A DNA stretch of 64,000 nucleotides from Brumimicrobium salinarum. GTDB taxonomy: Bacteria > Bacteroidota > Bacteroidia > Flavobacteriales_D > Crocinitomicaceae. Each line of letters begins with the position of its first letter. Position 1 is the first letter of the stretch. The notes beneath the pieces were generated by a model that did not search any database, was not told where the DNA came from, and saw only the letters and a list, made by a program, of their open reading frames with translations. The position numbers and the translations under genes were made by a program. This document shows, one piece after another, positions 26,256-37,581 of this stretch. The stretch spans positions 1-64,000 of the forward strand of contig NZ_PJNI01000010.1 in the NCBI RefSeq assembly GCF_002844555.1, written 5' to 3'.

Positions 26256-27242
26256 ATGTCTACAAATAAACATGCCACAATTCGATATAACGCAATAGAT
26301 AAGTGCCTAAGTAATTCTGGGCGTAAATATTATATTGATGATCTCGTTGCCTTTTGTAATCAAGCTATTTATAATTTTTCAGGGTTAGATAACGGTGTAA
26401 AGAAGCGGCAAGTGTACGACGATTTACGTTTTATGAAAAGCGATGAAGGTTTTGCAGCGCCAATTGAAACGTATAAGGATGGAAGAAGAAGTTATCATCG
26501 GTATACAGATCCAGATTTTTCTATTAACAAAAAGGATGTGTCGCCAAAAGAGCAACATCATATTCAACAAGCATTAGAGATTCTTTCACGTTTTCAAGGC
26601 TTACCTAATTTTGAATGGGTGGATGAATTGAAAGTGCGCTTAAATGACCAATTACCAGGAATATCTAATCAAGATAAAAATCCACATATTTCATTTCAAG
26701 AGAACCCATATTTAAAAGGAATGGAATTTTTTACGCCCATATATAATGCGATTCGACATGAAAGAATGATTGCCGTTGAATACCAAAATTATAAAAGTGA
26801 AGTACTTCAGCATTTTGAAATTTCCCCTTATCATCTTAAGCAGTACAATAATCGGTGGTTTGTTTTTGGCCAATCTCCAGCCTATGATACCCTGACTAAT
26901 CTCGCTTTAGATAGAATTATCTCAATTAATGAAATTGCAACGCCTTTTTTGCCGACAAAGATTGATTTTGAAACCTATTTTGAAGATGTAATTGGGGTAA
27001 CGATTCCTGAAGATGCTCAACTTGAAAAGGTTGTTTTGAAAGTAACGCATAACTTATATCCTTACATTGCTTCAAAGCCTCTGCACGGTTCTCAAAAGGT
27101 AATAGCACGTGAGGAAGATCACATTAAACTTCAGTTAGAAGTGTATATCAATTATGAATTAAAATCTGTATTGTTAAGTTTTGGTAATGCCATTCAGGTT
27201 GAAAGCCCATTAACTTTAATTGAAAAGTTGAAAACGATTTAA
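26256..27242 (+). CDS. WYL domain transcriptional regulator of the defence island
   Basis: A 328-residue WYL protein with an N-terminal winged-helix-like part (ATIRYNAIDKCLSNSGRKYYIDDLV ... VKKRQVYDDLRFM), a linker and a WYL domain. The WYL segment YHLKQYNNRWFVFGQ is near residue 190, with LALDRI after it and a C-terminal WCX-like part. WYL proteins such as BrxR and CapW repress defence loci. This one lies at the left end of an island with type I restriction, AbiH and HicB genes, and its nearest downstream promoter carries a TGCA-N7-TGCA motif repeated three times in the island. Autoregulation or island control is inferred. Paralogue of the gene at 1684. Confidence 0.85.
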   Translation: MSTNKHATIRYNAIDKCLSNSGRKYYIDDLVAFCNQAIYNFSGLDNGVKKRQVYDDLRFMKSDEGFAAPIETYKDGRRSYHRYTDPDFSINKKDVSPKEQHHIQQALEILSRFQGLPNFEWVDELKVRLNDQLPGISNQDKNPHISFQENPYLKGMEFFTPIYNAIRHERMIAVEYQNYKSEVLQHFEISPYHLKQYNNRWFVFGQSPAYDTLTNLALDRIISINEIATPFLPTKIDFETYFEDVIGVTIPEDAQLEKVVLKVTHNLYPYIASKPLHGSQKVIAREEDHIKLQLEVYINYELKSVLLSFGNAIQVESPLTLIEKLKTI

Positions 27243-27267: not shown

Positions 27268-27299
27268 TGCATTTCTATTGCATAGATCCCCTATATTTT
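27268..27299 (+). promoter_or_regulatory. TGCA-N7-TGCA operator and promoter, copy 1
   Basis: TGCATTTCTATTGCA (27268-27282) is followed after 9 bases by the -7-like TATATTTT (27292-27299). The motif sits where the -33 element should be, as expected for repressor competition. Similar segments occur at 27622 and 33832. Confidence 0.5.
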
Positions 27300-27324
27300 T
27301 AGCTTTCATTTTCAAATTAAAACT

Positions 27325-27564
27325 ATGAAAGTCGGAGATAAAGTAAAGTGTATAAATAACTTAAAAGGGAAGGTTAACAAACAAAATATTTGTCCCAATT
27401 GGATTGAAGAAGGAAGAATTTATACCATCAGAAAAATTGTTAGAGGATATGTACTGTTAGAAGAGGTGCACAACCCTTTATGGAAAACTTCAGAAAAAGG
27501 AGAGCTATTGGAACCTGGATTTGATCAGAGAAGATTTATTATTTATACGGAGAGAACTTCATGA
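27325..27564 (+). CDS. Small SH3-like hypothetical protein
   Basis: A 79-residue protein, MKVGDKVKCINN... with EEGRIYTIRKIVRGYVLLEEV and PGFDQRRFI. The pattern (VGDKVxCI, GxxYTV, GFDxxRF) resembles small SH3-like proteins found in phages and mobile regions of Bacteroidota. Its function is unknown. It is driven by the copy 1 operator/promoter 25 bases upstream, next to the WYL regulator, so it may be part of the island's regulated set. Confidence 0.6.
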   Translation: MKVGDKVKCINNLKGKVNKQNICPNWIEEGRIYTIRKIVRGYVLLEEVHNPLWKTSEKGELLEPGFDQRRFIIYTERTS

Positions 27565-27621
27565 TGATTAACGACTTCATTGGGGAATCCTATAAACATA
27601 AAACAAAACTTAATTCACCCG

Positions 27622-27655
27622 TGCACTTCTACTGCACAGGTCCCACTTACATTTG
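27622..27655 (+). promoter_or_regulatory. TGCA-N7-TGCA operator and promoter, copy 2
   Basis: TGCACTTCTACTGCA (27622-27636) is followed after 11 bases by a perfect -7 box, TACATTTG (27648-27655). The genes behind it look degenerate: an ATG at 27679 gives only five codons, and an ATG at 27741 gives 27 codons (MKLQELKYAPTVKRKSEIRI...). Confidence 0.55.
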
Positions 27656-27740
27656 AAATATCATTTAAAACGAGACCTATGAAATATACATTTTAGAACA
27701 ACTATTTACAAATTATACTTAGCTACCTAACAAGTATAAC

Positions 27741-27824
27741 ATGAAACTGCAGGAGCTGAAATATGCTCCTACAGTAAAACGTAAAAGCGAAATTAGAATA
27801 CGTGGAGTTCAGCAACCACTTTAA
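27741..27824 (+). pseudogene. 27-codon frame with internal hairpin, probable gene remnant
   Basis: ATG at 27741 opens a 27-codon frame (MKLQELKYAPTVKRKSEIRIRGVQQPL). The KSEIRIRG stretch is weakly like the SymE/type I toxin signature, but the expected GKWL continuation is absent. The DNA inside it forms an 11-bp hairpin with one mismatch (27746-27756 with 27765-27775). Best read as a decayed gene behind promoter copy 2. Confidence 0.25.
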
Positions 27825-27874
27825 ATAACGAGGCGAAACTGAAAAGCCATACGAGTAGGAATTTTAAAAACTTT

Positions 27875-28231
27875 ATGATGAAAAAATTAATTACAATCTG
27901 CATCTTAGCATTTGCAATCACAACTGCTCAATCTCAAACAGTTAATGATGTTCCTTTGAATGAAATTGATGTTGAATACATTCAGATTGTTGGAACTTCT
28001 AAGCTCTTTAAGAATGAAGTGACTATACAAATTGACTTTGGACAAGAGAATAAATTTTTTAGAGATAACACACGAGTTAAGGATGAAAATGGTAAACTTC
28101 TTTCGTTTAATTCGATGATTGATGCTTTGAATTTTATGAGCCACAATGGATATGAGTTTGTTCAAGCTTATGCATTGACAATTGGAAACCAGAACGTCTA
28201 TCATTATCTTATGAGAAAATCAGAAGATTAG
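27875..28231 (+). CDS. Small secreted protein of unknown function
   Basis: A 118-residue protein with a signal peptide (MMKKLITICILAFAITTAQS). The mature part begins QTVNDVPLNEIDVEYIQIVGTSKLFKNEVTIQIDFGQ and contains SMIDALNFMSHNGYEFVQAYALTIGN. I recognise this as a recurring small exported Bacteroidota family with no assigned function. The start is ATG 27875 or the next codon. It ends just before the 48-bp palindrome. Confidence 0.65.
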   Translation: MMKKLITICILAFAITTAQSQTVNDVPLNEIDVEYIQIVGTSKLFKNEVTIQIDFGQENKFFRDNTRVKDENGKLLSFNSMIDALNFMSHNGYEFVQAYALTIGNQNVYHYLMRKSED

Positions 28232-28238
28232 GCAGAGA

Positions 28239-28286
28239 TTTTTTTGGTGTACGGACGAATTGCAATTCGTCCGTACACCAAAAAAA
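28239..28286. repeat. Perfect 48-bp palindrome with TTGCAA centre
   Basis: The 24-base arms (28239-28262 and 28263-28286) match without error. Each has seven T/A outside and GGTGTACGGACGAATTG inside. With its flanking A/T tracts it can end transcription from either side, separating the small secreted gene from hsdM. Its core GGACGAATTGCAATTCGTCC belongs to the same family as the elements at 21679 and 59122. Confidence 0.9.
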
Positions 28287-28327
28287 AATCCTATCTTCAC
28301 ACCACCAATAAAACAAGAAAAAACAAA

Positions 28328-29863
28328 ATGATTACAGGAGAACTTAAATCTCAAATAGACCAAATATGGAATACCTTCTGGAATGGAGGAATCAGTAACA
28401 CCATTACCATTGTTGAGCAGTTAACTTATTTAATGTTTATCAAAGACCTTGATGAAACAGAAACCAGAAACGAACGCATGAAAAATCGTGGAATTGATGT
28501 TCAAATGATTTTTGGAGCAGACGAACAACAATTTAGATGGAAAAACCTGAAAGAATTAGACGTAGAGGCACGTCATAAAATCTTTAGTGATACGAATGAT
28601 GGTATTTTTCCGTTTTTGAGAAACTTGGGTAAAGATAAAAGTATGTTTGCTCAACACATGAAAGGTGCATCTTTTGGAATCAATAAACCTCAAGTTCTTG
28701 ATCAAGTCATTGAGAAATTGGAGCGCATCAACATGGATCAGCAAGATATTAAAGGAGATGTTTACGAATATTTGCTATCCAAATTAGAAGGTGGTGGAAC
28801 TTCTGGACAATTTAGAACACCACGACACATTATTAAATTAATGGTTGAATTGATGCAACCCCAATTGGATGATACCATTTGTGATCCTTCTGCAGGAACG
28901 GCTGGTTTTTTAGTTGCAGCTAAAGAATATATCGATACGCATTATAGTGTAATAGATCTCGATAAAAAGAGAAAACACATCAATGAAAACATGTTTAACG
29001 GAACAGAATTCGATGCGACAATGCTGAGAATTGCTTCCATGAATTTGTTCTTACATGGTGTAGAAGAACCAAATATTCGTGATGTTGATGCTGTTTCTAA
29101 AGACAATACAGTTGCCGAAGCTTATTCTTTGGTGCTCGCAAATCCTCCGTTTAAAGGTACAATTGACAAAGATAGTATTGCTACAGGATTAAAAAATGTA
29201 ACGAATACAAGTAAAACGGAATTGTTGTTTTTGGCTTTGATGCTCCGTGAATTAAAACTTGGAGGAAGAGCAGCTGTAATTGTTCCTGATGGAGTGTTGT
29301 TTGGAAGTAGTAAGGCCCACAAAAATATACGACAAGAAATTGTAGAAAACCAAAAGTTAGAGGCAGTGATTTCTATGCCGAGTGGAGTTTTTAAACCCTA
29401 TGCTGGAGTGAGTACTGCGATTCTTATTTTTACAAAAACCAACTCTGGAGGAACAGACAATGTTTGGTTCTACGATATGAAAGCCGATGGTAAATCATTA
29501 GACGACAAACGTTCTTTATTGGTGGATGCTGAATTATTTGAAAAATTCTCACGAGGAGAAGGAGCAGCTGAATTAACAGCAAAACAAAAAGAAGAACTCC
29601 ACGAGAACTTCAATTTACCCGATATTCTTGCGCGTTACCAAAAGAAGGACACTTCTGAAATGAAACGCGAACGTACAGACCAAAGTTTTACCGTTCCTTT
29701 CCAAGAAATTAAGGACAATGACTGGGATTTATCTATTAACCGCTATAAAGAAATTGTCTACGAAGAGGTGGAATATGATGAACCGAAGGTTATTTTGAAG
29801 AGGATAACGGAGTTGGATAAGAAGAGAGGTGAATTGTTGGAGAAACTTTCTAAATTGGATTAG
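28328..29863 (+). CDS. hsdM: Type I restriction-modification DNA methyltransferase subunit M
   Basis: A 511-residue N6-adenine methyltransferase. The N-terminal helical domain (SQIDQIWNTFWNGGISNTITIVEQLTYLMFIKDLDE) is typical of HsdM_N. Motif I is DPSAGTAGFLVAAKEY near residue 195 and motif IV is LANPPFKG near residue 275. It methylates the host DNA at the site chosen by HsdS and forms the core of the restriction complex. The start is ATG 28328 (MITGELKSQ); an earlier frame start at 28244 would lie inside the palindrome. Stop and hsdS start are 1 base apart. Confidence 0.95.
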   Translation: MITGELKSQIDQIWNTFWNGGISNTITIVEQLTYLMFIKDLDETETRNERMKNRGIDVQMIFGADEQQFRWKNLKELDVEARHKIFSDTNDGIFPFLRNLGKDKSMFAQHMKGASFGINKPQVLDQVIEKLERINMDQQDIKGDVYEYLLSKLEGGGTSGQFRTPRHIIKLMVELMQPQLDDTICDPSAGTAGFLVAAKEYIDTHYSVIDLDKKRKHINENMFNGTEFDATMLRIASMNLFLHGVEEPNIRDVDAVSKDNTVAEAYSLVLANPPFKGTIDKDSIATGLKNVTNTSKTELLFLALMLRELKLGGRAAVIVPDGVLFGSSKAHKNIRQEIVENQKLEAVISMPSGVFKPYAGVSTAILIFTKTNSGGTDNVWFYDMKADGKSLDDKRSLLVDAELFEKFSRGEGAAELTAKQKEELHENFNLPDILARYQKKDTSEMKRERTDQSFTVPFQEIKDNDWDLSINRYKEIVYEEVEYDEPKVILKRITELDKKRGELLEKLSKLD

Positions 29864-29864
29864 T

Positions 29865-31012
29865 ATGGATTGGAAGCTAATAAAATTAGGAGATGCGGCT
29901 ACTTTTATAAATGGTTTTGCATTTAAACCTAAAGATTGGTCAACTGAGGGAAAGGAAATTATTAGAATTGCTAATTTAACAGGTAGTAACTCTAATTTTA
30001 ACTATTTTAAAGGAAGTATAAATGAGAAATATTTAGTCAAAAAAGGAGATTTACTTATTTCTTGGTCTGCTACATTAGGTGTTTTTGAATGGGAGCATGA
30101 AACTGAAGGATGGTTAAATCAGCATATATTCAAAGTGGTATTTGATAAAATAGAATACGATAAAGGTTTTTTCAAGTATCAAATAGAGTCCGTTTTACAT
30201 GAATTAGAACGTGCAGTTCATGGTTCTACTATGAAACATATTACTAAAAAGAGGTTTGATGCGGTCGAAATCCCACTCCCTCCCCTCAAAACCCAACAAA
30301 AAATCGTAGAAATACTAGATGCAGCAGCAGCATTAAGAGATCATACTAAAATGCTTTTGGAGGAATATGATTTATTGGCGCAATCTATCTTTTTGGATAT
30401 GTTTGGGGATCCGACAGAAGGTGAAACGGTTGTATTAAAAGAATCATTAAAAATCCTAGGTGGTTATGCCTTTAAAAGTAAAGATTTTGTTGAATCAGGT
30501 GTTCCATTAATTAAGATAGGTTCTGTAAATAAAGGATATTTTGACTTAGAATCATTTTCTTTTCTCCCAGAAAACTATCTTTTAAAGTATAAAAAGTGGG
30601 TGATTAAACCAATGGATATGCTAATTTCCTTGACAGGAACAGTTGGTAAACAAGATTATGGAAACATTGAACTAGTAACATTTGATTATGATAAATACCT
30701 ACTTAATCAGCGTGTTGCAAAGCTTGAAGTAAATGATCAGTATAATAATACGTTTTTCTTTCATATGTTTTTACAAAAAAAGTAAAATATATACTTACAA
30801 AGTTAAGTCGTGGAGTTAGACAAGCAAACTTAAGCAATAATGATATTTTAAATTTAAAATTAATACGACCTAAAATCGCTCTCCAAAACGAATTCGCTAA
30901 AAAAATAGAAATCATAGAGCAGCAAAAGGAATTAGCGAAGCAAGAATTGCAAGAAAGTGAAGATTTGTTTCAGGCATTGTTGCAGAAGGCTTTTAAGGGG
31001 GAGTTGGTATAA
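29865..31012 (+). pseudogene. hsdS: Type I restriction specificity subunit S, frameshifted at an A7 tract
   Basis: HsdS with two target-recognition domains (TRD1 from MDWKLIKLGDAATFINGFAF; TRD2 from EGETVVLKESLKILGGYAFKSKDF) and the central PLPPLKTQQKIVEILDAAAALRDH spacer helix. The frame stops at 30785 after QKK (306 residues). After the seven-A run at 30775-30781, the next frame continues VKYILTKLSRGVRQANLSNNDIL ... KKIEIIEQQKELAKQELQESEDLFQALLQKAFKGELV to 31012, which is the expected C-terminal half. One added A restores a 382-residue protein. As read, the last part of TRD2 and the conserved C-terminal helix are lost. This could be phase variation, a mutation or a base-calling error. Confidence 0.9.
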
Positions 31013-31394
31013 TTATTCTTTGCAAGAAAGTTCCAAATACTGCGTTATGCTTGTTTTGAATTACAGTCATTTATAAGTATAAACTCCTGACAATTAAAAA
31101 CTGCACAAGCCTTGTCTTTGGAAATTTCTTATCAAAGACTTGAGCAGGCTAAGTTTCCTTGTGGACACTAAATAATTAGGGATTATGTAGATATTTTAAT
31201 GAGCACTCTACAGTTGAGGGAGTATCTTTTGATTCTTTAATAGGGTTTCAATGGGAATTTGCCATGGATTACGTTTTAGAGTTGCAATTTTATAGTTTTT
31301 TTATTTATCCTTTTTTTAGGACTATATGGAAGTTAGCAATGTATTTGGAGATTAAACTTGCTTAAATGAACAAAATAATTTTTTATACAACACT
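31013..31394. other. Intergenic region between hsdS and the coiled-coil gene
   Basis: 382 bases without a convincing gene. A weak hairpin, GTCTTTG (31114-31120) with CAAAGAC (31133-31139), is present. I find no TGCA-N7-TGCA copy and no exact TAnnTTTG box upstream of 31395, so the promoter of the next gene is not identified. Confidence 0.4.
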
Positions 31395-31967
31395 ATGAAT
31401 ATTATACAACACCAAGTAATAGATTTCGTAAGAACGACACCAGTTCCTCACTCTAATTATAGGCTTTATTTAGATAGCGTTAAAAGTTGGCTATATGAAA
31501 TTAATGAAGAGGGAACCAAATATGAATTGTTAAGTGAGTTGATCAAACACTTTAAGCAAGAAATGGATGAAAAAGTTGAAAATACACTTAGACCTGATAA
31601 ATCAATGGAAATCGATCAATATAAAGTTTTGATTTTTCGTTTAAATGATGAATTAAATGGAATTAGAGAATATGTTTCTAAAAAAAACTTTTTTGAAAAC
31701 GAAAAGAGCAAATTGGATGAAAAATTAGACGAAATTTTATGTCAGTTGCAAACTTTGAAAAATGGGCAAGAAATCATATACGAAGATCTTACTAAGGAAT
31801 TGAATGAAATGAAAGAATTTTACTTTCTCAATAAAAAAACATGGAAAGAACTTTTGATTGGAAAGTTGTTTTCCATGGTTAATTCAGGAGTAATTAGCCT
31901 GACAGTTAGTCAAAAGATTGTCAATATAATTAATGATGAATATGCCAATCTAATTGACCAAATATGA
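31395..31967 (+). CDS. Coiled-coil protein coupled to AbiH
   Basis: A 190-residue protein of unknown family. Residues 1-30 (MNIIQHQVIDFVRTTPVPHSNYRLYLDSVK) are followed by a long charged helical region, probably a coiled coil (about 85-150: EYVSKKNFFENEKSKLDEKLDEILCQLQTLKNGQEIIYEDLTKELNEMKEF). A short hydrophobic C-terminal stretch follows (LLIGKLFSMVNSGVISLTVS). Its stop overlaps the abiH start by 4 bases (ATGA), which implies translational coupling and a joint function. A truncated paralogue with the same N-terminus lies at 33894. Possibly the partner or antitoxin-like control of AbiH; that is inference. Confidence 0.75.
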   Translation: MNIIQHQVIDFVRTTPVPHSNYRLYLDSVKSWLYEINEEGTKYELLSELIKHFKQEMDEKVENTLRPDKSMEIDQYKVLIFRLNDELNGIREYVSKKNFFENEKSKLDEKLDEILCQLQTLKNGQEIIYEDLTKELNEMKEFYFLNKKTWKELLIGKLFSMVNSGVISLTVSQKIVNIINDEYANLIDQI

Positions 31968-33055
31968 ACAGACTAATAATAATTGGAAATGGCTTTGACT
32001 TAGCACATGGTTTAAAGACTAAATATGAGGACTTTTTGTTGTGGTATTTGAAGTCGAAGGTAGAAATATTAAGGGATGATGAGCCAGCAAAAGACAGGCT
32101 GTGTACATTAAAACTTAAGAATGAGAATTTAAGAGGACGCAGGTTAAATATTCTTGAGAATATAGATAAAGCAAAGGGACATAAAGATGTTATTAAATCA
32201 ATCACTAGTTCTAGCTATAATATTGTATATAATTCACTTTTCTTTAAGGATATCATCAATGAAGATAGATGGGTCGACATTGAAAATATATATTATTATT
32301 TTCTTAAAAACTCAATGGTTATAGGTAAAAGAACAAGAATCAATGAACCTTTTCCTAGCATTGAAGAGATAAATAGTGATTTGGATTTCCTACGTGATAA
32401 ATTTATTGAGTATTTGAAATCCGAATGCAATGACTTTGATTTTGATGTTTCAGAATCGCCCTATTTAAATTTGTTCAGTAGAAAAATGTATTATGAAAAT
32501 GATAATAGTGAAGTAATAGATGGAGTTGCAGATGCAATGTTACAATCTAAAACAATGATACTGAATTTCAATTACACTAACTTGATTAAGAAATATGCGG
32601 AAGTTAAAACTGGTTTATTTGAGACCGTTCAAATTCATGGTTCGTTAGATTACCCTGAGAAGATAGTTTTTGGCTTTGGAGATGAGCTAGACGAAACTTA
32701 TCAAGAGATTGAAAGGTTAAATGAGAATAAGTTTTTCGAACATATCAAATCGTTTAGATATTTTCAAGATGGGAATTATCAAAAATTAATGGCTTTTGTG
32801 GATAATGATCCTTTTGAGGTTCTGGTTTTAGGTCATTCACTCGGTCTTTCGGATAGAACCATGCTTTCACAAATATTTGAAAATGACAATTTAAAAAGAG
32901 TTCAATTGTATTATCATCAAGGTCAAAAAGATTTTACTGAGAAAACATATGAAATATCTCGCCACTTCACAAGTAAAGGTCGAATGAGGGAATTGATTGT
33001 TCCTTTTACTAGATCAGAGCCAATGCCGCAGGTGGAAATGAATTCTAAAGATTGA
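31964..33055 (+). CDS. abiH: AbiH family abortive infection protein
   Basis: A 363-residue protein with the AbiH signature at the start (NRLIIIGNGFDLAHGLKTKYEDFLLWYL). NFNYTNLI (near residue 200), QIHGSLD and VLGHSLGLSDRTML complete the family pattern, which looks like a nucleotide-binding fold. AbiH was first described as a lactococcal phage abortive-infection protein; its mechanism is unknown. Here it sits between hsdS and hsdR of a type I restriction system, a typical position for cargo defence genes, and overlaps the preceding coiled-coil gene. Expected to be cytoplasmic. Confidence 0.88.
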   Translation: MNRLIIIGNGFDLAHGLKTKYEDFLLWYLKSKVEILRDDEPAKDRLCTLKLKNENLRGRRLNILENIDKAKGHKDVIKSITSSSYNIVYNSLFFKDIINEDRWVDIENIYYYFLKNSMVIGKRTRINEPFPSIEEINSDLDFLRDKFIEYLKSECNDFDFDVSESPYLNLFSRKMYYENDNSEVIDGVADAMLQSKTMILNFNYTNLIKKYAEVKTGLFETVQIHGSLDYPEKIVFGFGDELDETYQEIERLNENKFFEHIKSFRYFQDGNYQKLMAFVDNDPFEVLVLGHSLGLSDRTMLSQIFENDNLKRVQLYYHQGQKDFTEKTYEISRHFTSKGRMRELIVPFTRSEPMPQVEMNSKD

Positions 33056-33106
33056 TTATTAAACACTTTCGTAAATGATAAGAATTATTAATTGTAATAA
33101 TATTTG

Positions 33107-33114
33107 TATTTTTG
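33107..33114 (+). promoter_or_regulatory. -7 box for the HicB gene
   Basis: TATTTTTG matches TAnnTTTG, 22 bases before the start codon. The nearest TTG (33092-33094) is only 12 bases upstream, so the -33 part is doubtful. Confidence 0.5.
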
Positions 33115-33135
33115 CAGTATAACTTGATTTAAAAC

Positions 33136-33504
33136 ATGGAAGAATTAATAGATTTCACAGAAACATTTCGTGTAAAGAAAGGTGTTGTCTCGGCACGCTT
33201 ATTAAGTGTAAGTGGCAAGGAGGATGATAGTTTCGTGATTTTTGCACCTACGTTTAATTTAAGTGGTTACGGTAACACAAGGGGGGAAGCAGAAGAAATG
33301 ATTAAAGAATCATTTGATGATTTTGTGCATTATTTTCTGACTTTAACTTCTAGCGAGAAAGAGTTGTATTTATTTCAACATGGCTTTTCAAAAGAGAAGT
33401 TTAAATCTAAAAACTTTTCAAAAGCTTATATTGATGAAAACGGTGAACTTCAAAATTTAAAATTGGAAAATCAATCTTATGAGTTAACAAATTTAGTGGC
33501 CTAG
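33136..33504 (+). CDS. hicB: HicB-like antitoxin
   Basis: A 122-residue HicB-type protein. The HicB fold is visible in VVSARLLSVSGKEDDSFVIFAPTFNLSGYGNTRGEAEEMIKESFDDFVHYF (about residues 17-67), with the pattern of aromatic strand, SGYGxT and helix. A C-terminal segment (EKFKSKNFSKAYIDENGELQNLKLE) may hold the DNA-binding or toxin-contacting part. In Bacteroidota this form is paired with a downstream HicA-like toxin that has a CPNC motif, and that partner lies 3 bases downstream but is interrupted. HicB presumably still represses its own promoter. Confidence 0.78.
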   Translation: MEELIDFTETFRVKKGVVSARLLSVSGKEDDSFVIFAPTFNLSGYGNTRGEAEEMIKESFDDFVHYFLTLTSSEKELYLFQHGFSKEKFKSKNFSKAYIDENGELQNLKLENQSYELTNLVA

Positions 33505-33507
33505 CCT

Positions 33508-33744
33508 ATGGGGAATAATCGACCTATAAAAACCAAATGTTTTATTAAGTACCTATTGTATTTAAATTGTATTAAAAAAGGAGTTAAAGCTTCACACCAT
33601 AAATACAAATGCCCCAACTGCCATCGTCCTATTATGATTAGAGAGGCAGATTAGGATGTTCCTCCGATGCATTTAAGAAGTTGTGCAAAGACCTTAGGAG
33701 TAACTGTTGATGAAATATACCTTTGGGTTGAAAAAAACTGCTAA
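33508..33744 (+). pseudogene. hicA: HicA-like toxin interrupted by an amber stop
   Basis: The frame from ATG 33508 encodes MGNNRPIKTKCFIKYLLYLNC... with ASHHKYKCPNC, the dsRBD-like HicA region with its His (SHH) and a CPNC pair. It meets TAG at 33652-33654 after 48 codons. The same frame then continues for 29 codons (DVPPMHLRSCAKTLGVTVDEIYLWVEKNC) to TAA at 33742-33744, matching the normal C-terminal part. A single change (AAG or CAG to TAG) explains it. The toxin is probably inactive, leaving hicB as an orphan. Suppression of the stop is a less likely alternative. Confidence 0.75.
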
Positions 33745-33831
33745 TCTTTTATTTATTTCGTTTCTGTCTTTTCTAATAAATTTTTGTTTGTTACCAAAAC
33801 AAGTGAATTTTCTGTGATGATTTCTAACCTG

Positions 33832-33865
33832 TGCATGTATACTGCACTCGTCTGTTCTATATTTA
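33832..33865 (+). promoter_or_regulatory. TGCA-N7-TGCA operator and promoter, copy 3
   Basis: TGCATGTATACTGCA (33832-33846) is followed after 11 bases by the -7-like TATATTTA (33858-33865). The preceding AACCTG also matches copy 1. It drives a truncated frame at 33894. Confidence 0.5.
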
Positions 33866-33893: not shown

Positions 33894-33992
33894 ATGAACA
33901 TTATTCAAGAACAAGTAAATGACTTTTTAGTCCATACAAGGTATGTAAGTGGAAAGTACAATGACTATATAGACAAGACTTTAATCAATTAA
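33894..33992 (+). pseudogene. Truncated paralogue of the AbiH-linked coiled-coil protein
   Basis: A 32-codon frame, MNIIQEQVNDFLVHTRYVSG... ending KTLIN. It aligns with the first ~30 residues of the 190-residue protein at 31395 (MNIIQHQVIDFVRTTPVPHS...). It stops far short and no AbiH homologue follows, so it is a remnant of a second copy of that module. It lies behind operator copy 3. Confidence 0.55.
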
Positions 33993-34095: not shown

Positions 34096-37000
34096 ATGAA
34101 TACAAACTTTCATTTTCTTAAAAACGAATGGCCAACTTTCTTCGATAGAGCAAGTAGAGCTGAAGGTTTTGTAAGAACAGACCCAAGAGCATCACTGTCT
34201 TATGCAAGAATGGCTTTAGAAGTAGCGGTAAATTGGATGTACCGCAACGATGAAGAGTTGGAGATGCCTTATGATGATAATCTGAGTGCATTAATGGTCA
34301 ATAGAGATTTTAAAGATCAGTTCAACTATAAAATGCTGAATGAACTCCATTTAATTCGTAAAACGGGAAACCTTGCCATCCACAACAAGGCAGTCAGTGA
34401 TGTTGATTCTTGTACAATCATTGAAAATCTGTATTATTTTGGAAAATGGTTTGCTAAGTCATACCGCAAGGGAGAAATTGATGTTCCTGGACCTTTTGAT
34501 TGGGATTTAATTCCAGAAAGAAACACAGCATCTATCACCAAGCGACAACTTGAAGCGCTACAAAAGGAAATGGAAGAAAAGCTTGCTCGTTTTCAGGAAC
34601 AACAAAAAAAGCAACAAGAAGAACGAGAAGAGCTTTTAGCGAAAAATGAATTGTATAGACGTCAAATTGAGGAACGTACAAAAATTACCGAAGCTCAAAA
34701 AGCCGAAGCCAATCAAGAAGATGATTTACAACATCCAAGAAATGAGGCTGAAACCCGTAAATATTTTATTGATGTTTCTTTGCGTGAAGCAGGCTGGGAT
34801 TTAAGTGGCGCAAATGTAAAGGAATTTCCTGTGAAATTTATGCCGTCATCTACCAATAAGTCTACAACTGGAAATGTAGATTATGTGCTTTGGGATGACG
34901 ATGGAAAACCGCTGGCAGTTGTGGAAGCCAAAAGTACCATGGAAAATGCTTCAAAAGGAGAGAATCAAGCGCAATTGTATGCAGAAGCATTAGAAAAAAT
35001 GTTTGGAAAGCGACCAGTAATGTACTATACGAATGGATATGATACTTTTTTATGGGATGATCAGTTCTATAAAAAGGCGAGACTCGTTCATGGCTTCTAT
35101 ACTAAATCAGAATTACAAACCTTAATGTTCAGACGTGAAAACCGTAAGGATATTCGCAAAGCTGAAATTGATATAGATATTGCAGGAAGACCTTATCAAA
35201 TGCGTTCCATAAAAAGTATAGCAGAACACTTTGCAGGTACAGATAAGCGTACAGGTGAGTTGGTAGGAACGAACAGGGGAGCTTTACTTGTTTTAGCAAC
35301 AGGAACAGGGAAAACAAGGACTTCTATTGCCTTTTCTAAGATTATGTTGCAATCCAACTGGGCTAAGCGTATTTTATTCTTGGCTGACCGTGTCAGTTTG
35401 GTGAAACAAGCGAAAGCTAACTTTGTAAAATTACTTCCTGAACATGCATCAGTAAATTTAATTGAAGAAAAGGAAAACCCTGATGCTAGAATAGCATTTT
35501 CAACCTATCAAACCATGATGGGGTTAATTGATAAATCACGCGATGGCGATGCTCGTTTTTACGGTGTTGGACATTTTGACCTTATTATCGTTGATGAAGC
35601 TCACCGTTCAATTTATCAAAAGTTTCATGCTATTTTTGAATACTTCGATGCATTGTATTTAGGTTTAACCGCTACTCCAAAAGACAGTATTGATAAGAAT
35701 ACGTACAGTGTTTTTGATTTACCAGATAAAACACCAACAGACTCCTATGGTTTTGATGAAGCAGTAAAGGAAAAGCATTTGGTACCTTACCACAGCATTG
35801 ATATGCCAACAAAGTTTCACTCAGAAGGAATTCGTTACGAAGACTTGAGTGATGAGGAAAAAGAAGAGTTTGAGAATGAAATTTTAGATGGAGAAGAAGC
35901 TACGGGGAATGAATGGATTAAACCAGGTGAATTAAATGAATGGTTATTTAATAAGGATACTGCGGTTAAAGTCTTACAATATATACTACAAAATGGAATA
36001 AAGAAAAGAGGTGGTGAAGAGTTAGGAAAGACAATCATATTTGCGAAAAATCAAAAGCATGCACATTTTTTAAAAGATATGCTTTTAGATATGGATAAAG
36101 AGCAATTTGGAAATGATTATGTGAAAGTGATTACTCACAATGAACCTAAATCACAAGAATTTATTGAACGTTTTTGTGACGAAGAAAAAGACCGCTTACC
36201 ACAAATTGCAATCTCTGTTGATATGATGGATACTGGAATTGATGCGCCAAGCTGTGTTAACCTTGTTTTTTATAAGCCAGTAAGGTCATACGCTAAATTT
36301 TGGCAAATGATTGGTCGAGGTTCGCGATTAAGGCCGGATTTATTTGGTCCAGGAAAAGATAAAACCCATTTCTTGATTTTTGATTTGTTCGAAAACTTTG
36401 ATTTTTTCAAATTAAATCCAAAAGGTATAGAATCAAATGCTCAGCAGAGTTTAACAGCTCAGAATTTTATTTTAAGGTTACAACTCGCAAATTATCTTGG
36501 ATCAAATTCTTTTTTAAAGGATGAAGATTTGCAAGCGCATAGAAAATCACTTTTAGATGCTTTACATCATGAAGTTGCATCATTAGATTCTTCTCGATTT
36601 GATGTTAAAATGAAGTTTGAAATTGTTACAGAATTTGGAATTAATCAACGTTCTAAATGGGATAGTTTATCTAAAAAAGAGATCCGAACGATTGAAAATG
36701 AACTCGCAAATTTAATTCAACCACCAAAAGGAGACTCTGATTTGGCTCGCTATTATGATAAAAGACTTTATCTTTTAATGCTTAATCGTTTGGAAACTCC
36801 AGATTCAGATTTGTTCAAAAATAATTTTGCACTTCCTATTTCTAAAGTGGTAACTTTATCAAGGAAATTAGAAAGAAAGACAAGCATACCTATTGTTAAA
36901 GAAAATTTAGCATTGATTCAAGCGCCTCTTGATGATGCTTTCTGGGAGAAAAAAGGAATTGCTCATTTAGAGAAAATACGTTCTGGTATTCGAGACTTAT

Positions 37001-37581
37001 TGAAATATATTGACCGCGAAGACGAACGTTATGTAATGACTGATTACGAAGATAAACTTGGTGAAATTAGAGTGAATAATGCGCTAAGAGTAGGTGAAGA
37101 AGATATTGAATATGAAAATCCTTTTGCTTCAACAGCCAAAAGATTGGAGCAATTGATTAATGAAAATAAAGAAAATATCACCATCAGCAGAATTCGTAAA
37201 GGAGAAAAGATCACACAAGAGGAGCTCGCAGGTTTGGAAGATATTTTGTTTACAGATAAAATTCAAAAGGAGAAACTCATTCAAGAGGTTGGCGAAAATT
37301 TTAATCTTGTATCTTTCATTATTTCATTAATGGGAATTTCCAAAGAGAAGGTGGATCAGGCTTTTGCTGAATTCATTAATAAATACCATTTAAGTTCTAT
37401 TCAAATTGAATTTTTAAATACGATAAAAACCTTCCTAACAACAAATGGAAAGCTAGATCCCAAGAAACTGTTTGAAGAACCTTTTAGAAATTTCCATTCT
37501 CAAGGGGTTGAGGGAGTCTTTAATGATCAACAAACAGATGATTTGTTTAGGATTGTAGGAAAGATGAATGAGATTGGGTAG
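34096..37581 (+). CDS. hsdR: Type I restriction enzyme subunit R (endonuclease/translocase)
   Basis: An 1161-residue HsdR. Residues ~5-125 match a DUF4145-like helical domain (ASRAEGFVRTDPRASLSYARMALEVAVNWMY), followed by a Gln/Glu-rich coiled coil (~150-205). The nuclease core has VDYVLWDDDGKPLAVVEAKST near 260-280 (D...ExK). Helicase motifs follow: Walker A LATGTGKTRTS (~400), DEAH in IIVDEAHRS (~498), LGLTATP, and motif VI QMIGRGSRLRPD. The rest is the C-terminal domain that binds the methylase core. It translocates DNA and cuts unmethylated DNA remotely. It is separated from hsdMS by the AbiH and HicAB genes. Confidence 0.95.
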   Translation: MNTNFHFLKNEWPTFFDRASRAEGFVRTDPRASLSYARMALEVAVNWMYRNDEELEMPYDDNLSALMVNRDFKDQFNYKMLNELHLIRKTGNLAIHNKAVSDVDSCTIIENLYYFGKWFAKSYRKGEIDVPGPFDWDLIPERNTASITKRQLEALQKEMEEKLARFQEQQKKQQEEREELLAKNELYRRQIEERTKITEAQKAEANQEDDLQHPRNEAETRKYFIDVSLREAGWDLSGANVKEFPVKFMPSSTNKSTTGNVDYVLWDDDGKPLAVVEAKSTMENASKGENQAQLYAEALEKMFGKRPVMYYTNGYDTFLWDDQFYKKARLVHGFYTKSELQTLMFRRENRKDIRKAEIDIDIAGRPYQMRSIKSIAEHFAGTDKRTGELVGTNRGALLVLATGTGKTRTSIAFSKIMLQSNWAKRILFLADRVSLVKQAKANFVKLLPEHASVNLIEEKENPDARIAFSTYQTMMGLIDKSRDGDARFYGVGHFDLIIVDEAHRSIYQKFHAIFEYFDALYLGLTATPKDSIDKNTYSVFDLPDKTPTDSYGFDEAVKEKHLVPYHSIDMPTKFHSEGIRYEDLSDEEKEEFENEILDGEEATGNEWIKPGELNEWLFNKDTAVKVLQYILQNGIKKRGGEELGKTIIFAKNQKHAHFLKDMLLDMDKEQFGNDYVKVITHNEPKSQEFIERFCDEEKDRLPQIAISVDMMDTGIDAPSCVNLVFYKPVRSYAKFWQMIGRGSRLRPDLFGPGKDKTHFLIFDLFENFDFFKLNPKGIESNAQQSLTAQNFILRLQLANYLGSNSFLKDEDLQAHRKSLLDALHHEVASLDSSRFDVKMKFEIVTEFGINQRSKWDSLSKKEIRTIENELANLIQPPKGDSDLARYYDKRLYLLMLNRLETPDSDLFKNNFALPISKVVTLSRKLERKTSIPIVKENLALIQAPLDDAFWEKKGIAHLEKIRSGIRDLLKYIDREDERYVMTDYEDKLGEIRVNNALRVGEEDIEYENPFASTAKRLEQLINENKENITISRIRKGEKITQEELAGLEDILFTDKIQKEKLIQEVGENFNLVSFIISLMGISKEKVDQAFAEFINKYHLSSIQIEFLNTIKTFLTTNGKLDPKKLFEEPFRNFHSQGVEGVFNDQQTDDLFRIVGKMNEIG

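Follow-up and report, generated by a model that had tools for sequence, protein, structure and literature searches.

The window analysed here is a 64,000-nucleotide stretch of Brumimicrobium salinarum DNA (contig NZ_PJNI01000010.1, positions 1 to 64,000) containing a defence island with a type I restriction-modification (R-M) system and a gene for a WYL-domain regulator. Three copies of an operator-promoter module were identified in the island, each consisting of the dyad TGCA-N7-TGCA followed by a -7 box of the type TAnnTTTG. Computation directly recovers this motif, its fixed spacing, its association with one WYL clade and the fold of the protein. The sites are probably promoters of a WYL regulon, in which the WYL protein, as an activator resembling DriD of Caulobacter, would switch the island on.

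The operator-promoter module and its conservation

The three operators lie on the + strand at 27268..27282 (copy 1, beginning 26 bp beyond the WYL stop codon), 27622..27636 (copy 2, GTGCA-N7-TGCAC) and 33832..33846 (copy 3, GTGCATGTATACTGCAC). All three are where the original prediction placed them, and the window has no further TGCA-N7-TGCA. The corresponding boxes, on the same strand, are TATTTTTA (27294..27301; 5/6 consensus letters), TACATTTG (27648..27655; 6/6) and TATATTTA (33858..33865; 5/6). A spacing of 9-11 bp had been proposed, with the box of copy 1 read as TATATTTT, 2 bp upstream of TATTTTTA; the distance is exactly 11 bp in all three. A shared AACC prefix had also been described. 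The hexamers upstream of copies 1, 2 and 3 are AACCTG, CACCCG and AACCTG, so copies 1 and 3 have the prefix but copy 2, with CACCC, does not. Numbered as for Flavobacterium johnsoniae promoters (T-12/A-11; PMC6847099), the operator would span about -38 to -24, with its centre at -31, over the -33 element. The idea of a shared module with paired TGCA over -33 is supported. A test for a -33 box, which yielded 139 control but only 11 operator promoters and little -33 signal among the controls, was discarded as evidence.

Comparison with WYL relatives used the best 80 of 392 loci, of which the closest encodes a protein of 64% identity on a contig labelled Flavobacteriales. A ranking, blind to the finding, of every one of the 4352 possible dyads w-Nk-rc(w) (k from 0 to 16) within 250 bp upstream and 150 bp downstream of each WYL gene put TGCA-N7-TGCA first, with 61/80 loci. 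The runners-up were the overlapping GTGC-N9-GCAC (32 loci) and, as best unrelated dyad, an AT-only one (22 loci). In 43/80 loci a site follows the WYL gene and in 20 one precedes it; the 80 WYL genes themselves contain none. Across 1.37 Mb there are 117 sites, versus 18-43 for TGCA pairs at gaps of 4-6 and 8-11. Within 200 bp of the WYL gene the density is 2.24 per kb (70/117 sites in 31.3 kb), and beyond that distance it is 0.02-0.05 per kb, about 40-100 times lower. Nineteen loci lack an exact site (18 of the 80, and L015). A dyad with one half-site mismatch and a box at 11 bp is present in 10/19 of these, versus 4/145 random windows and 0/19 loci of core WYL paralogues; the remaining 9/19 have neither the exact dyad nor such a near-match. 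The exact dyad was likewise not found in L055.

Within 40 bp of TGCA-N7-TGCA in the 80 loci, 39/47 TAnnTTTG boxes are at 11 bp and 8 are elsewhere; spread over 30 loci, these 39 show 36 distinct spacers. For the looser TAnnTTT the count at 11 bp is 62, and no other distance has more than 10. The consensus of 151 oriented site-box pairs is CTGTGCAGATnTACTGCACA. These pairs comprise 130 distinct dyads (21 with a box on both sides) in 79 loci. They were selected for at least 5/6 box letters, so the spacing is supported by the TAnnTTT counts above and not by how often boxes occur among these pairs.

A second sample, of 199 genomes (183 with some WYL match), contains 127 modules at spacings of 8-13 bp, 33 of them at 11 and 94 at 8-10 and 12-13. 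Thirteen TGCA-clade WYL genes in these genomes were selected on their recognition helix and clade, when part of the motif results was already known; 20/33 of the spacing-11 modules but 0/94 of the others were no more than 15 kb from one of them. Many of the matches at other spacings are due to a distinct recurrent palindrome, TGCAAC-N3-GTTGCA, which in many genomes lies mostly 8-10 bp before TAnnTTTG (e.g., G195:C18:17398 and G165:C16:62977) and probably belongs to another regulator.

In the B. salinarum genome itself (3,413,539 bases), the exact module TGCA-N7-TGCA-N11-TANNTTT occurs four times, three times in the window and once on contig C17. Instead of many copies before housekeeping genes, which the original prediction had named as evidence against it, all four are at the two TGCA-clade WYL islands of the genome. 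Four dyads without a box at 11 bp were inspected (C23:248630 and three in L052-L053) and all lie inside open reading frames (ORFs). GTGCA-N7-TGCAC occurs twice on contig C23, outside the WYL islands, and C23:248630 is one of these two. The C17 module directly precedes the start of a WYL paralogue (39% identity), with 17 bp from the box to the aligned ATG. A further site, with a box one letter off, precedes a small gene there, followed by genes for HsdM, two HsdS-part ORFs and HsdR. The C17 island is a same-genome replicate of the arrangement of WYL gene, type I R-M system and module.

The WYL protein and its sister group

The candidate reader of the three sites is a 328-amino acid (aa) WYL-WCX transcription regulator encoded at 26256..27242 on the + strand. 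Pfam matches to WYL (3.7e-11) and WCX (9.7e-08), both above cut-off, with a predicted winged helix-turn-helix (HTH) upstream, place it among the WYL-domain regulators. The predicted structure consists of the winged HTH, three helices, WYL and WCX, with the recognition helix at about residues 49-60: KKRQVYDDLRFM.

At the loci of a sister group of WYL proteins, of about 34% identity, one base of each half-site is different. CGCA-N7-TGCG was found in 16/18 loci L021-L038, of which L035 belongs to the TGCA clade, and in 17/18 of the sequences grouped on the tree (L019, L021-L034 and L036-L038), the exception being L038. In this group CGCA-N7-TGCG stands before the own WYL gene, with boxes near 17 bp. 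The L021 protein (694-2460) is fused to a PhyH dioxygenase domain, and those of L023 and L025 are of like length. Neither TGCA-N7-TGCA nor CGCA-N7-TGCG was found at any of 19 core WYL paralogues (about 30% identity). On the tree one group, with full support, unites the core sequences, and a second (93 sequences, support 99) the TGCA sequences with their site-less kin; the CGCA sequences fall between these groups and are not resolved as a single clade. A contig labelled as an alphaproteobacterial metagenome-assembled genome (L162) carries a TGCA-clade WYL gene nested among Bacteroidota, reflecting either misbinning or transfer.

The recognition helix differs between the two groups. Residues 51-54 read RQ(I/V/L)(F/Y/R/L) in the TGCA sequences (L017 has T52) and R(T/S)xQ in the CGCA sequences, and residue 54 is F/Y/R/L in 74/74 of the former versus Q in 17/17 of the latter. 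As this represents one evolutionary split, it is support rather than proof. At the paired WYL-domain arginines that serve ssDNA binding in DriD, the TGCA sequences have an invariant R220, and the partner position is A217 in 67/74; K195, R200, H277 and Q280 are invariant in 74/74.

The WYL protein as owner of the TGCA-N7-TGCA motif, and hence the suggestion that the regulator encoded upstream of copy 1 reads the sites, is strongly supported by these comparisons: the association with the clade across genera despite varied cargo, the variant code of the sister group, the recognition helix and the second island of the same genome.

Activation or repression

We infer DNA binding, dimer formation, activation and a ligand. 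A WYL homodimer would read TGCA-N7-TGCA, the half-sites of which are 11 bp apart, or one helical turn. Covering the -33 element (about -38 to -24), 11 bp upstream of the -7 box, the bound dimer may anchor RNA polymerase at promoters without an evident -33 box, as described for Caulobacter DriD. This would switch on the island: the small gene from copy 1, the hsdM side from copy 2 and hsdR from copy 3. A nucleic-acid ligand that occupies the WYL/WCX groove during infection or DNA damage is the probable trigger.

A DriD-like activator is favoured over a repressor of the same sites because the fixed spacing, the N7 geometry, the place over -33 and the protein similarity resemble DriD more than BrxR or CapW. 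For the same reasons of spacing, geometry and similarity the "silencing switch" first proposed is unsupported. DriD sites (ATACGAC(X)7GTCGTAT) lie at one distance from -10, over -35, in promoters with a poor -35, and one is bidirectional (PMC12340889). DriD and the window protein share the order of HTH, three helices, WYL and WCX. They also have in common a dyad with a 7-bp centre over -35/-33, a fixed distance to the -10/-7 box (here 11 bp in most cases) and bidirectional cases. A phmmer search of the PDB with the single WYL sequence gave no matches. A profile search of solved structures did, with DriD best (7tzv, 3.4e-6; BrxR 7qfz, 0.0012, and 7t8k, 0.24; CapW, 0.02-0.16), and Foldseek likewise put DriD first (2.6e-14; PafBC, 1.2e-12; CapW, 3.6e-9; BrxR, 2e-8). 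The VIA-align comparison with BrxR and CapW was closer, unlike the profile search and Foldseek, which place both behind DriD. Differences from DriD are the half-site (CGAC versus TGCA here), the promoters (sigma-73 versus TAnnTTTG), the reported targets (DNA-damage genes versus a type I R-M island) and the paired arginines of the WYL domain, which are not kept as a pair in the window clade; the Foldseek alignments have 13-16% identity.

PafBC, a mycobacterial WYL-WCX activator, works by sigma adaptation: inserted between domain 4 of sigma and the promoter, it recognizes a -26 motif (PMC11804915). It is a heterodimer, whereas the symmetric dyad here suggests a homodimer. SiwR, a WYL activator that is also mycobacterial, binds a 19-bp imperfect palindrome across the -10 to -35 region (PMC10693628), and its targets are DinB-like rather than defence genes.

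It is less likely, though to be taken seriously, that the same WYL protein represses from the same sites, a dimer over -33 blocking sigma until a ligand made during infection releases it. The WYL regulators studied at defence systems, BrxR of bacteriophage exclusion (BREX) and CapW of the cyclic-oligonucleotide-based anti-phage signalling system (CBASS), are repressors with palindromic operators at promoters, and relatives of BrxR adjoin type I restriction enzymes in 34/210 cases (PMC9122601, PMC9122588). Acinetobacter BrxR binds over -35, and 14/151 of the site-box pairs precede the WYL gene itself, as would fit negative autoregulation. However, overlap would suffice for a steric block, and a single distance in so many pairs is tighter than that requires; the nearest solved relative, DriD, is an activator. 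The operators of BrxR and CapW may cover -10, lie beyond it or cover -35, the R-BOX is an 11-bp repeat with a 5-bp spacer, and both proteins match the window protein more weakly than DriD in sequence and in Foldseek.

That another regulator, or a promoter-plus-operator cassette spreading with cargo, explains the sites, with only an indirect association with WYL, is improbable. In its favour are the presence of the sites in islands and a single near-copy pair (L059:2761 and 4711). Yet most sites are within 200 bp of a WYL gene while the cargo varies, and the operator letters change with the WYL group. RptR, a repressor that acts on type I R-M islands by way of short palindromes, was set aside as the regulator here: it is an all-helical protein separated from the WYL repressors in PMC12255303, and its site is TAGCTA. 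Chance repetition of a short palindrome in AT-rich DNA can be dismissed almost with certainty since, although the window count alone is marginal and insufficient (3 versus a mean of 0.93, with 6/100 shuffles reaching 3), the comparative data (dyad rank, gap controls, spacing, genome scan and density) exclude it.

Island cargo and its wider meaning

The cargo is a type I R-M system: HsdM, HsdS and HsdR are all recognized by Pfam or PADLOC, with an interrupted hsdS frame. Copy 1 is followed, 23 bp past its box, by a 79-aa ORF (27325..27564, +) without a Pfam or PADLOC match. Past copy 2 are very short ORFs, then a 118-aa ORF (27875..28231, +) with a DUF6705 match under the curated cut-off (E 0.00087), and then the gene for the type I methyltransferase HsdM (28328..29863, +; PADLOC MTase_I, 1.9e-173). 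A perfect 34-bp inverted repeat between T and A runs, at about 28239-28286, separates the latter two and is likely a bidirectional terminator; hsdM may therefore be only partly under copy 2. The first open part of the specificity subunit gene hsdS (29865..30785, +; Pfam Methylase_S, 4.3e-28) ends at a stop at 30785 after an A7 run, and the C-terminal part is in another frame (30774-31011), so the gene is interrupted, or possibly phase-variable. A 190-aa ORF (start 31395), AbiH (start 31964) and an ORF without a Pfam match (start 33136) follow. The last of these, and the adjoining ORF at 33508-33744, which has an in-frame TAG at 33652-33654, we presume to be HicB-like and HicA-like.

Past copy 3 is a 33-codon ORF (33894-33992) which by eye resembles the N-terminus of the 190-aa ORF and is maybe a duplication remnant from insertion of the AbiH cargo. 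The next full gene encodes the restriction subunit HsdR (34096..37581, +; PADLOC REase_I, 3.4e-179). By blastp, 0/134 first-gene targets outside the window match the window HsdR, although other HsdR types could escape; a separate hsdR promoter of this class therefore seems unusual. With the 79-aa and DUF6705-like ORFs, those starting at 31395 and 33136 and AbiH as queries, tblastn found no relatives in 89 other loci, so synteny beyond the R-M genes is unusable.

Genes like the window HsdM, HsdS or HsdR were found in 46/80 loci, many of the 80 contigs being short. First genes after a site were scanned with Pfam for 118 of 119 distinct targets, omitting an overlapping second start in L166. Among the 25 most frequent families in each half of the targets, N6_Mtase predominates (36/118), followed by HIRAN (8), DUF2130 (6) and reverse transcriptase (5); AAA/PIF1, TIR, PD-(D/E)XK and others also occur. 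Single-member families that are not defence-specific include a DnaB-like helicase, cold-shock and radical SAM proteins. In L134, L155, L164 and L182, two sites about 80 bp apart lie upstream of the WYL gene and precede similar 64-65-aa proteins divergent from it; that of L134 has no Pfam match.

Both WYL regulators at defence systems and WYL activators with sites at a fixed distance are already known. Among the open-licence PMC papers listed in our searches, none dealt with WYL operators in Bacteroidota; within these limits the module of this Bacteroidota clade, its tie to type I R-M and the one-base sister variant appear to be new. We tentatively propose, at somewhat less than even confidence, that TGCA-N7-TGCA-N11-TAnnTTTG defines a class of promoters that depend on WYL proteins throughout Bacteroidota. 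At such promoters a DriD-like activator would replace the -33 contact of the divergent sigma factor, allowing infection or DNA damage to induce type I restriction along with other defence genes. The sister group, partly fused to PhyH-like dioxygenases, would use a CGCA-N7-TGCG code and a spacing different by about half a turn. The paired TGCA and CGCA operators are suited to specificity-swap study of how WYL HTH domains read DNA. Little seems to have been written on how Bacteroidota control their defence islands, and a promoter pattern of one line with a likely reader lets islands under common control be found and allows one to ask whether infection turns on type I restriction.

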